Shown here: positions 11,526 through 14,967 of the stretch, piece by piece
How positions within the stretch are numbered: position 1 is the first letter of the stretch
How the letters are laid out: the number at the start of each line of letters is the position of its first letter
From: Microbacterium sp. TNHR37B
GTDB lineage: Bacteria > Actinomycetota > Actinomycetes > Actinomycetales > Microbacteriaceae
DNA length: 64,000 nucleotides
Direction of reading: 5' to 3'
NCBI RefSeq assembly: GCF_001620065.1
Contig: NZ_LQGV01000003.1
Coordinates: 310,001-374,000 of the forward strand
Notes under the pieces: model-generated
What the model was told of the DNA's origin: nothing
The model's database searches: none
Seen by the model: the letters and a program-made list of their open reading frames with translations, nothing else
Program-made: the position numbers and the translations under genes

Positions 11526-11978
11526 ATGACGGAGCTTCGCCTGGTGGAACTGTCGGCTGCGACCATCGTCGCGGTCAACGCGATGTCCCTCAAGCCGGGC
11601 CAGGAGCAGTTCCTGGCGCCGACGAGCTATGCCGTGGCCGCCGCCGTCGTCAACCCCGCCACCGCGTGGCAGCGCGTCGTCCTCGACGACAACGAGGTCG
11701 TCGGGTTCGTGAGCGCCAACTTCGACCCCGAGGCACCGCACGAGCACTTCCGTTCGGTGCTGTGGCGGATCAACGTCGATGCCGACGACCAGGGCCGCGG
11801 AGTGGGGCGCTTCGCCGTCGAGAAACTTCTCGAAGAGGCGCGCTCCCGCGGCGTCGACCACGTCAACGTCATCTACGAAGCCGGAGAGGAAGGCCCCGAG
11901 GCGTTCTTCCGGCGCGTCGGATTCACCCCGGTGGGCGAGACCGAGTTCGGCGAGGTCGTCGCCGAGGTCAGGCTCTGA
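11526..11978 (+). CDS. GNAT family N-acetyltransferase
   Basis: A 150-residue single-domain acetyltransferase. The acetyl-CoA loop is QGRGVGRFAVE (motif A, about residues 87-97), preceded by the strand LWRINVDADD and followed by the motif B region FFRRVGFTPV. The N-terminus (MTELRLVELS) and length resemble spermine/spermidine-type acetyltransferases, but the substrate is not evident. Its last 106 bases overlap the 3' end of the signal peptidase gene on the other strand. Confidence 0.85.
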   Translation: MTELRLVELSAATIVAVNAMSLKPGQEQFLAPTSYAVAAAVVNPATAWQRVVLDDNEVVGFVSANFDPEAPHEHFRSVLWRINVDADDQGRGVGRFAVEKLLEEARSRGVDHVNVIYEAGEEGPEAFFRRVGFTPVGETEFGEVVAEVRL

Positions 11979-12586
11979 TCACTCGCCGTCGCATCGTCGC
12001 CGCTTCCCTCTTGCGCGCGGGATTCACCGCGGGCCCGTGACCGGCGGCGAGGTCTCGTATCTCCCTCCCCCATCGAGGCCTCGTCGCCCTCTTCCCGGCG
12101 CGGCCAGAAGGCCCACGTGACCAGAATCGCCGCCCCGATCGTCACGACCGCCAGGACCAGGGGGTGCTGGAGCCAGGCGACGGCGGCCGCGACTCCCGGA
12201 ACCGCCCACCACACGTGCCGCACCGTCGTGGCGGTGTAGGGAACCGGGTCCTCCGAGGCGTTCGCGTCACCCTTCATCCGGAAAGTGACCCGGTCTCCGT
12301 CGACCGAATCGATCCCGACGACACGATGGGTGATCGGGAGCTCGGGATCGCGGGAGACGGTCACGACGTCGCCGACCGACATCTCGGTGGCCGGGATCTC
12401 ACGGACGAAGGCGATCGACCCCGCCGGGATCGTCGGCGACATCGAGCCGGTCGCGAACATGATGATCGTGACGCGGAAGACCACGGCAGCGACGACGAGG
12501 GCGAGACAGATGAGCCCGCCGAGCGCGAGGAGACTGAGGAGCGTCTCTCCGACGACGCGGAGTCCGCGCCGGGGCGCCTCGGTCAC
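11873..12586 (-). CDS. Signal peptidase I, SipW/ER type (S26B)
   Basis: A 237-residue membrane protease. One N-terminal membrane segment is followed by the catalytic serine in ATGSMSPTIPAGS. A histidine (LPITHRVVGID) stands where bacterial-type signal peptidases have lysine, the mark of SipW/ER-type enzymes. A second membrane segment is near residues 145-170, and a charged, Ser/Arg-rich tail follows. It is the last gene of a five-gene operon, coupled by a GTGA overlap, and probably cleaves the alternate signal peptides of the upstream products. The low-complexity tail runs 106 bases into the convergent GNAT gene; functionally the protein could end earlier. Confidence 0.85.
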   Translation of the reverse strand: MTEAPRRGLRVVGETLLSLLALGGLICLALVVAAVVFRVTIIMFATGSMSPTIPAGSIAFVREIPATEMSVGDVVTVSRDPELPITHRVVGIDSVDGDRVTFRMKGDANASEDPVPYTATTVRHVWWAVPGVAAAVAWLQHPLVLAVVTIGAAILVTWAFWPRREEGDEASMGEGDTRPRRRSRARGESRAQEGSGDDATASDQSLTSATTSPNSVSPTGVNPTRRKNASGPSSPAS

Positions 12587-13050
12587 CACGTGCAGCCCGT
12601 GATGAGTCCGGCGAGGGTCGTGGAGAACGTTCCGGTGACGGCGGGGGAACTCCACGTGTTCGACACCGCGCGCACCCGCACGTCATACGTGACTCCCCCC
12701 AGCAGCGTGGACAACAAGCCCGAGGTCGACGCCGACGTCGCCCCGGCTGCGACGGTGATGGAGGCCTGCACGACTCCCTGACGGAGGATCTCCAAGACGT
12801 AGCCCGTGCGCGGTGCGCCCGTCGTGGGATTGATCCAGGAGTAGGTGACCGAGAGCCCCAGCACGATCGAGCACCCGTTCTTGGTCGGCGCGACGACCCC
12901 CGTGGACGCGATGCTCGCCGCAGAGAGCTCCTGATCGGTCCACGCGGCCGAGACCGCCTGCGGAAGGCCGGCCGTGGGCGACAGGCCCAGGGCGCACACG
13001 AGGGCGACCGCTCCCCAGCCGGCTCGTCGTCGAACGTCTCGGCGACTCAC
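12583..13050 (-). CDS. Exported protein with SipW-type signal peptide, fibronectin-like
   Basis: A 155-residue protein. The N-terminus has Arg residues, a hydrophobic stretch and then SAAWTDQE, the same AAWTDxE boundary seen in the two larger exported proteins of this operon. The rest reads like one fibronectin type III-like domain (TGYVLEILRQGVVQA, then GVTYDVRVRAVSNTW) and has two cysteines. The GTG start overlaps the previous stop by 4 bases and its stop overlaps the signal peptidase start by 4 bases. It is probably a surface or matrix component. Confidence 0.75.
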   Translation of the reverse strand: MSRRDVRRRAGWGAVALVCALGLSPTAGLPQAVSAAWTDQELSAASIASTGVVAPTKNGCSIVLGLSVTYSWINPTTGAPRTGYVLEILRQGVVQASITVAAGATSASTSGLLSTLLGGVTYDVRVRAVSNTWSSPAVTGTFSTTLAGLITGCTW

Positions 13051-13655
13051 GGCGCGGCCTCCCGGCGCGCCCGGGCGATGCGCGCCAGCAGGAGGCCCGC
13101 GCCGACCGCCCCCAGCGCCGGCAGGAACATCATCCCGACGCGGCCGCCGCTCTGCGCCAAGCCCTCCTCGTCCCCGCGCCCCTCGCCGCGCGCGTGGACC
13201 GTGAGTCGCGCGACGCGAGCGTCCGGCGCGCCGCCGCTGTCCGCCAGCCAGATCCGCAACCGATACCATCGCGTCTCGCGGGAGGGCATCGTGGCGATGG
13301 CGGCCGCGCTGTCGGCGGACACCCTGGGGCGAACGTGCTCCCCCGATCGGCACCCCGCGGACGTCCACGCGACGTCGCACTCCCGCACCTCGACGGAGAA
13401 GGAACCGGTGGGATCGCCCCCCTCCCATCGCACGTCGATCACGCCGTCGTCGCGGGAGGCGGACACGGCGACGTCCCACGTGACCGGGACCCCCGGCTCC
13501 ATACGCCGCGCCGCCTCGCGGTCGAGCGTGGCTTCGACACGGACGATGTCGGGGTCCTCCGGCGCCTCTGCGCTGGTCGTGGGCAGCCCTCCGGAGAGGC
13601 CGGAGAGCCCCGCCGCGAGGAGCCCGGACAGGACGAGCGCGGCGATCGCGGTCAC
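13047..13655 (-). CDS. Putative cell-wall-anchored protein with LAxTG-like C-terminus
   Basis: A 202-residue secreted protein of unknown family. An N-terminal hydrophobic segment (about residues 2-22) is a classical signal or anchor and lacks the AAWTD motif. The C-terminus has LAQSGG, a hydrophobic stretch and an Arg-rich tail (RIARARREAAP), the layout of a class E sortase sorting signal, LAxTG, with serine for threonine. Two cysteines (RECDVAW and SAGCRSG) could form a disulfide. It is coupled by 4-base overlaps on both sides and may tether the operon's exported proteins to the wall. No sortase gene is seen in this window. Confidence 0.65.
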   Translation of the reverse strand: MTAIAALVLSGLLAAGLSGLSGGLPTTSAEAPEDPDIVRVEATLDREAARRMEPGVPVTWDVAVSASRDDGVIDVRWEGGDPTGSFSVEVRECDVAWTSAGCRSGEHVRPRVSADSAAAIATMPSRETRWYRLRIWLADSGGAPDARVARLTVHARGEGRGDEEGLAQSGGRVGMMFLPALGAVGAGLLLARIARARREAAP

Positions 13656-14323
13656 GGCGTGGACCCCGCGAAGCGCCACGTGACCGTCGTGGTCTGGTTC
13701 TGGACGCCATCGGCCGCCGTCGACGGGAGGGCGATACGGATGCAGTAGGTCACGGTGTTCGCGCCCGCCGCCTGCAGGTCCTGTGGGGCGTCGGGCGTCG
13801 TGGCGACGTCCGTGGACAGAGCCGTGCCATTGGGCACGATCACCGGCGCCGAAGCATTCGAAAAGAGCGCCTCCGCGCACGAGGCCCCGGAGGGCACGAC
13901 GCGCACGGCGTAGACGAGGGCCGCGGCGAGCGCGCCCGACGCCGAGGTCGCCGTCTGCATCCGCACGACACCGGGCACCGAGTCGAAGCCGCCGCTCGCC
14001 GCCGTCGCGGTGCGAATGCGTACCGTCGTGAACCCCGCGGGAGAACCGGGATAGACGCCGCCCAGCGTCGGGGTGAAGGTGATCGTTCCGCCGGGGCTCG
14101 TGGCGTGGTCGGCGAAGGCGCCGTCGCTGATGCTCCCCACGATCCCGAATCTTCCCGAGCCGACCGTGGCGGTGGCGAACTCGTTGTCCGTCCAGGCGGC
14201 GAGGGTGGCCACCGCGCCCACGCCCAGCACGATCGCCCCCGCCAGCACGGCACGCGCACGGAGGAAGAGGCGTCCGCGTCGTCCGGGGACCCGGCGCCGC
14301 CCGACGCCGACATCGGAGGACAC
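13652..14323 (-). CDS. Alternate-signal-peptide exported protein, TasA/CalY-like
   Basis: A 223-residue protein. After an Arg-rich start comes a membrane-like segment (AVLAGAIVLGVGAVATL) and AAWTDNEF, then GSGRFGIVGS and ADHATSPGG. This matches the alternate (SipW-dependent) signal peptide type known from actinobacterial and TasA-like exported proteins. The mature part is Thr/Ala/Ser-rich and beta-like, with two cysteines. The GTG start at 14323 has AGGAG 5 bases upstream. It lies 8 bases after the first operon gene and overlaps the next by 4. Confidence 0.75.
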   Translation of the reverse strand: MSSDVGVGRRRVPGRRGRLFLRARAVLAGAIVLGVGAVATLAAWTDNEFATATVGSGRFGIVGSISDGAFADHATSPGGTITFTPTLGGVYPGSPAGFTTVRIRTATAASGGFDSVPGVVRMQTATSASGALAAALVYAVRVVPSGASCAEALFSNASAPVIVPNGTALSTDVATTPDAPQDLQAAGANTVTYCIRIALPSTAADGVQNQTTTVTWRFAGSTP

Positions 14324-14331
14324 GTTCTCTC

Positions 14332-14967
14332 CTAGGACGACGCGGCCGTGAACTGCCAGACGCCGGTCGCCGAGGTGCCCTGTTCCAGCCCAGCGCTGGA
14401 GGTGACGGCGAAGCACAGCTGCTGGGCCACCCCCGCGGCGGGTGCGACAGGAGCAGACAACGAGACGCTCGTGCTGGTCACCGCCGTGTCGTCGAGAGAC
14501 CCCGCCGCCAGCGGCGTGCCCGTCGCGGTGGCCGCTCCGCACGTCGCCCCCGCGGCGAGGGGGTAGATCGCGTAGTCGAGCTCGGCGACAGCGGTGCCGG
14601 TGCCCATGAGCCCGACGAGGGAGAGGTCGGCCGGATTGGTCGTCCCCGCCGCCAGCCGCACCCAGAACCCGGCGTAGACGGTCTCCTCCGGAGCCAGCTC
14701 GTCCACCGGCAGGGAGAAGCTCAGCGTCGCCGCGCTTCCCGCCGTGTCGTGGTCGGCGTACGTACTGCCATCGACCGAGCCCTCGAGGTTGAACTGTCCC
14801 GCCGAGAAGAGGCCAGTGACGAACTCGTCATCCGTCCACGCGGCGAGGACCACTGCTCCGCCGACTCCGAGGACCAGTCCGCCGGCCAGCAGAGCGCGCG
14901 CCTTGCGGCGGCGCCTGCGGAGGATGATCGCTTCCTGTGTTTCCGTGCTCCGTACTTCCGTGCTCAC
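14332..14967 (-). CDS. Alternate-signal-peptide exported protein, TasA/CalY-like (first gene of operon)
   Basis: A 211-residue protein. A basic run (RRRRRKAR) is followed by a hydrophobic stretch and AAWTDDEF, then SAGQFNLEGSVDG and YADHDTAGSAATLSFS, the layout of SipW-dependent exported proteins. It shares the signal region and general layout with the next gene. The mature protein is Ala/Thr/Val-rich with a cysteine pair and few aromatic residues, suiting a self-associating surface protein. I chose GTG 14967 because GAGG lies upstream at good spacing. It is probably the first gene of the operon, with a promoter between here and 15127. Confidence 0.75.
   Translation of the reverse strand: MSTEVRSTETQEAIILRRRRRKARALLAGGLVLGVGGAVVLAAWTDDEFVTGLFSAGQFNLEGSVDGSTYADHDTAGSAATLSFSLPVDELAPEETVYAGFWVRLAAGTTNPADLSLVGLMGTGTAVAELDYAIYPLAAGATCGAATATGTPLAAGSLDDTAVTSTSVSLSAPVAPAAGVAQQLCFAVTSSAGLEQGTSATGVWQFTAASS

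Follow-up and report, generated by a model that had tools for sequence, protein, structure and literature searches.

What is made by a set of genes in which three predicted exported proteins share one unusual signal-peptide boundary and lie beside a signal peptidase of their own? The question is raised by five frames, here named A–E, on the minus strand of a 64,000-nucleotide stretch (the window) from Microbacterium sp. TNHR37B, whose genome comprises 3.5 Mb in four contigs. Translation of the window revealed that all five frames exist, between positions 11,873 and 14,967, with 8 bases between A and B and overlaps of 4 bases each at B/C, C/D and D/E, the layout that had been described in an initial annotation. 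The boundary AAWTDxE is also present as annotated, reading AAWTDDE in A, AAWTDNE in B and AAWTDQE in D, each after a hydrophobic, membrane-like stretch. On balance, the operon probably specifies a donor-strand filament of the TasA type, comparable to the thin protein fibres of Bacillus biofilms, together with a dedicated peptidase, a starter resembling TapA and a wall anchor of the sortase type; the fold of A is predicted from a model, while the processing of the proteins, their nucleation and polymerisation, their anchoring and any part in biofilms are inferred.

The operon is a conserved unit, and a chance grouping was rejected. Linkage was assessed in 59 Microbacterium genomes, in which the NCBIfam model TIGR04088, “SipW-dependent-type signal peptide” (curated cut-off 19 bits), gave 59 matches, and the peptidase model TIGR02228 (curated cut-off 51.85 bits) gave 82, 58 of which were kept. 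A kept peptidase lay no more than 5 kb away from 57 of the 59 signal matches; the other two are 1.5 and 2.8 kb into contigs that hold no peptidase match. Signal and peptidase occurred together in 32 genomes, the peptidase alone in 10, neither in 17 and the signal alone in none (Fisher value 3e-8, a guide only, as related genomes are not independent). The initial annotation had set the linkage of the peptidase to AAWTDxE proteins in related genomes as a test of its proposal, and the link is kept. The reverse link is looser: at the sensitivity of TIGR04088, 36 of the 58 kept peptidase loci had a signal match within 5 kb. TIGR04088 was matched in 47 of 149 genomes sampled within the order, and in 29 of 64 genera. 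All four of its matches at E ≤ 1 in the source genome fall in two SipW-type operons, that of the window and another on contig C1.

To compare gene content, 59 loci were fetched for the 60 best-scoring places in the genus after the window, together with this second operon of the source genome, and all their frames were scored with profiles built on A–E of the window. Among the 51 best-matching loci (L039–L089), the commonest arrangement was A-A-E-C-D (32 loci), followed by the same order with E fused to C (nine), and A-E-C-D and A-A-E-D (three each); A-A-C-D-E (L039), A-E-C with the fusion, and A-A-E-C were each seen once, and L089 stops at a contig end. The full set of pilin-like, peptidase, anchor and fn3-like genes was found in 45 of the 51, and the nine remaining loci (L090–L098) are diverged sets. 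Thus, most of these relatives carry the same gene content, whereas the gene order of the window, with the peptidase last, proved rare. A further 20 loci were taken from other genera of the order; three of them, all of one other family, have the peptidase last (L108, A-A-C-D-E; L114 and L118, A-C-D-E). This order is therefore common to the window, L039, L108, L114 and L118, and the peptidase tree hints at transfer without supporting it.

The peptidase and the anchor are fused in one frame in ten genus loci (L041, L057, L060, L070, L074, L077, L084, L085, L086 and L088), and in three loci from three other families (L106, L113 and L115). As E is fused to C in these 13 loci, cutting and anchoring are suggested to take place at one membrane site. 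Where the fused frames were read, a signal-like hydrophobic segment lay between the two parts.

Gene A (14,332–14,967, minus strand, GTG start) encodes 211 residues, and gene B (13,652–14,323, minus strand) encodes 223; both products pass the TIGR04088 cut-off, with 25.8 and 28.5 bits respectively, and carry a SipW-type signal peptide. B aligns with the A family, with 27% identity to A and two invariant cysteines common to both. In an alignment of 73 A-family sequences, W44, D46 and E48 were invariant and F54 was kept in at least 90%; beyond the signal peptide, the majority of invariant residues fall in the segment directly after the predicted cleavage site. This site and the putative donor strand of A, AWTDDEFVTGLFSAG (14,797–14,841, minus strand), were assigned from conservation, low pLDDT and comparison with TasA, in which residues 28–38 form the donor strand and F29 and F39 make hydrophobic contacts (PMC9674648). 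The AlphaFold model of A has a pLDDT of 75, falling below 50 for residues 24–57, and the first mature residues are predicted to be disordered, as expected of a free donor strand.

The initial annotation had proposed modelling for TasA-like folds, and the predicted structure of A resembles one, with middling scores: the Foldseek top match was the TasA fibre 8aur, and the best structural alignment, made with VIA, was that to the archaeal bundling pili 7ueg. Both are donor-strand filaments, and 17 of the 20 best structural-alignment rows are pilus or fibre proteins. At the sequence level, no TasA or TapA chain in the PDB matched the operon proteins, and the Pfam profile PF12389 (TasA/camelysin) did not match A of the window, giving weak matches in 10 of 73 relatives (best E 0.017). 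No sorting tail was found at the C-terminal ends of A and B. The names of the closest database proteins point to Microbacterium. Among the best 120 of 270 database matches, A-family members are named in Brevibacterium, Brachybacterium, Glutamicibacter, Agromyces, Leucobacter, Ruania and Yaniella, and the names, where given, are mostly “SipW-dependent-type signal peptide-containing protein” or similar.

E (11,873–12,586, minus strand) is a signal peptidase of the ER/SipW type (S26B type), judging from its sequence. It passes TIGR02228 with 61.6 bits, and aligns with human SEC11A, the closest solved chain, at GSM, HRV and KGDxNA, with histidine where LepB-type enzymes have lysine; the S26B assignment of the initial annotation, which named this substitution, is borne out. 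S48, H87 and D107 were invariant among five aligned E sequences, and the motifs [ST]GSM, [TS]HR and GDxN were kept in all 62 E frames examined. A dedicated enzyme is understandable in view of E. coli LepB, which copes badly with aromatic P2' residues and processes the TasA signal with very low efficiency (PMC10269814); tryptophan stands at the predicted P2' position in A, B and D.

The enzyme core covers approximately residues 1–165. Since the last 35 codons of E (11,873–11,978) are antisense to a convergent acetyltransferase gene (11,526–11,978; overlap 106 bases), and most alignments to true relatives stop near residue 165–190, its functional end is probably earlier than that of the frame. 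Apparent homologues of residues 163–237 only, seen in many genomes, are probably the antisense of the acetyltransferase gene.

D (12,583–13,050, minus strand; 155 residues) combines a SipW-type boundary with an fn3/Ig-like body. TIGR04088 gave no match to it at E ≤ 1, although AAWTDQE is present, and the fn3 match is near threshold (24.6 bits against a cut-off of 25), just short of it for the fibronectin-like protein that had been annotated. None of four genus relatives of D matched fn3, one of them weakly matching another Ig-like model, while a D from another family weakly matched fn3. The site at which D would be cut, and its putative donor strand, AWTDQELSAASIASTG (12,898–12,945, minus strand), were placed by sequence and by N-terminal strand scoring. 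For the latter, a profile built from 98 N-termini of A and B was used. Of 49 D proteins, 33 have the motif in its strict form, and the next 17 residues of these were scored; the other 16, several with variant motifs such as AAWVDAE, were outside the scoring. The mean score was -4.2 and fell to -20.3 when the same residues were shuffled; 26 of the 33 strands beat 95% of their own shuffles. D thus appears to repeat the A/B-type N-terminal strand on a different body, as does TapA of B. subtilis, which shares the N-terminal strand of its pilin (PMC9674648). Searching the PDB with a D profile, at E ≤ 1, brought up no chain of TapA. The description of D as an added fibronectin-like protein therefore stands as to its fn3-like nature and not as to mere addition: because it shares with the pilins a strand-like segment at the N-terminus, D looks more like a TapA-type filament starter, a role that it may fill by analogy.

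C (13,047–13,655, minus strand; 202 residues) is beta-rich by model, has an ordinary-looking signal peptide, and matched no family in the NCBIfam and Pfam-type profile scans of the window proteins. The SipW motif is absent from 47 of 48 C frames. Its tail, noted as sorting-like in the initial annotation, does have the expected parts, LAQSGG followed by a membrane segment and a basic end, with an atypical motif (LAQSG, 13,146–13,160, minus strand). Among the matches listed there are at least 112 homologues of C, of which 91 carry LAxTG before the membrane segment, 15 LPxTG, three LAxSG and three none, so that 109 of 112 have a sortase-type tail and most carry LAxTG; LAQSG also occurs in the two closest of these relatives (P0215 and P0225), and L039, the nearest relative of the window locus, has LPATG. 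Models of sorting signals matched up to 43 of 62 C relatives at E ≤ 0.1, and did not match C of the window at this threshold. It is likely, from these comparisons, that C belongs to a wall-anchor-type family and is itself a wall anchor; the anchor proposed earlier is supported by the tails of the family, and weakened by the variant motif and the missing model match in the window protein. Class E sortases prefer LAxTG, and the single PF04203 match in the genome is a class E sortase (229.8 bits against a cut-off of 160). No sortase gene was found in the operon, and the PF04203 search of the genome gave no class C pilin sortase.

Together, these features allow a pathway to be proposed. A, B and D would be exported by Sec, and an ordinary signal peptidase would cut their signal peptides poorly because the second mature residue is tryptophan, as TasA work in E. 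coli implies. Cleavage at A/AWTDxE would instead fall to E, and would release an N-terminal strand running, in A, from W44 to near F54. D, with the same strand on its fn3/Ig-like body, would begin the filament in the manner of TapA by supplying the first donor strand, and A, along with B as its relative, would extend it by inserting the free strand of each subunit into the next. C would take the ordinary export route and hold the base, once the class E sortase, whose gene lies elsewhere in the genome, had linked it to peptidoglycan. A more specific and distinctly tentative proposal is that of a wall-anchored donor-strand pilus of actinobacteria, which would combine SipW-type cleavage, an fn3-like starter and a covalent, sortase-type base protein that is fused to the peptidase in some lineages.

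Several observations weigh against a filament: unrelated rows rank above TasA in the structural alignment of A, its fold matches score in the middle range and include unrelated enzymes near the top, and the P2 tryptophan, the residue of TasA found to block LepB most (PMC10269814), is absent here. The first two fit the explanation that A, B and D work independently of one another as secreted proteins of the cell surface, such as adhesins or camelysin-like proteins, which use E and never polymerise, C being a wall protein with its own task. Relatives named mostly after their signal peptide alone are in keeping with this, as is the finding that camelysin/Peptidase_M73 is the Pfam family most often matched by A relatives, albeit weakly. 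Separate proteins would leave unexplained, however, the predominance of pilus and fibre proteins among the best structural rows, and the concentration of invariant residues in a post-cleavage segment that recurs on a different body in D; a fixed gene set with an anchor also fits assembly better. This explanation is rather unlikely, though it ranks first among the alternatives.

The absent P2 tryptophan bears instead on whether a housekeeping signal peptidase cuts A, B and D, in which case E would have another target and the shared motif would reflect common ancestry of signal peptides. The genomes do contain further, weaker peptidase matches (24), probably the housekeeping enzyme, and some D proteins have altered motifs. 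The near-complete linkage, with not one of the 59 genomes having signals without a peptidase, speaks against such an arrangement, as does the tryptophan at the predicted P2', since aromatic residues there are reported to hinder E. coli LepB (PMC10269814), and it is judged improbable. Least probable by far is a classical sortase-polymerised pilus operon of the SpaA type: the tail of C would suit it, but A and B have no such tail, the operon has no sortase gene, and the one PF04203 protein of the genome is of class E and not a class C pilin sortase.

The donor-strand filament favoured here has parallels in tapA-sipW-tasA of B. subtilis, where a SipW-type peptidase likewise adjoins its substrates, putative ones in the case of E, and the genes overlap, with a pilin that A resembles in predicted fold and an Ig/fn3-like accessory protein bearing the N-terminal strand of the pilin. 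It differs in having two A-family proteins, the additional C with its sortase-type tail, and in some relatives the E–C fusion, and its proteins have no sequence match to the TasA or TapA chains. The B. cereus sipW-tasA-capP(bc1280)-calY system, as presented in the available part of PMC13082335, is also similar, with two TasA/CalY subunits, one accessory protein and SipW; its authors call it sortase-independent, whereas the Microbacterium operon includes a protein with a sortase-type tail. The bundling pili are archaeal and have 12% identity to A. The NCBIfam pair TIGR04088/TIGR02228, whose cut-offs A, B and E pass, names the signal and the enzyme and leaves out C, D and assembly.

In NCBI records, A and B are already named after the signal peptide; set against known TasA-type filament systems, the new elements of the assembled system are its sortase-type anchor and the fusion of this to the peptidase. 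A literature search for SipW and Microbacterium found no paper, nor was one on an actinobacterial SipW/TasA operon found by title or abstract among the matches listed, in a search that had most subscription literature outside it. Many listed proteins of the A and C families carry only the signal-peptide name or “hypothetical protein”, and would, if the proposal is true, become a testable filament system. A wall-anchored pilus would unite strand exchange with sortase anchoring, two strategies for Gram-positive fibres which are described apart in the available portions of PMC9674648, PMC10151520, PMC9715654 and PMC13082335, and the peptidase–anchor fusion would suggest that fibre maturation and tethering are coupled in space.

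The second operon of the source genome (L001/L098; contig C1, approximately 242.3–244.5 kb) is diverged, and reads as an A-type protein with AAWSDNVF, a SipW-type peptidase, a protein with an LAATG tail, and a protein with AAWTDSTSAS. TIGR04088 scores it below cut-off, at 14.4 and 14.7 bits. The LAATG protein is unmatched by the window-protein profiles, which match the first two frames and, weakly, the last.
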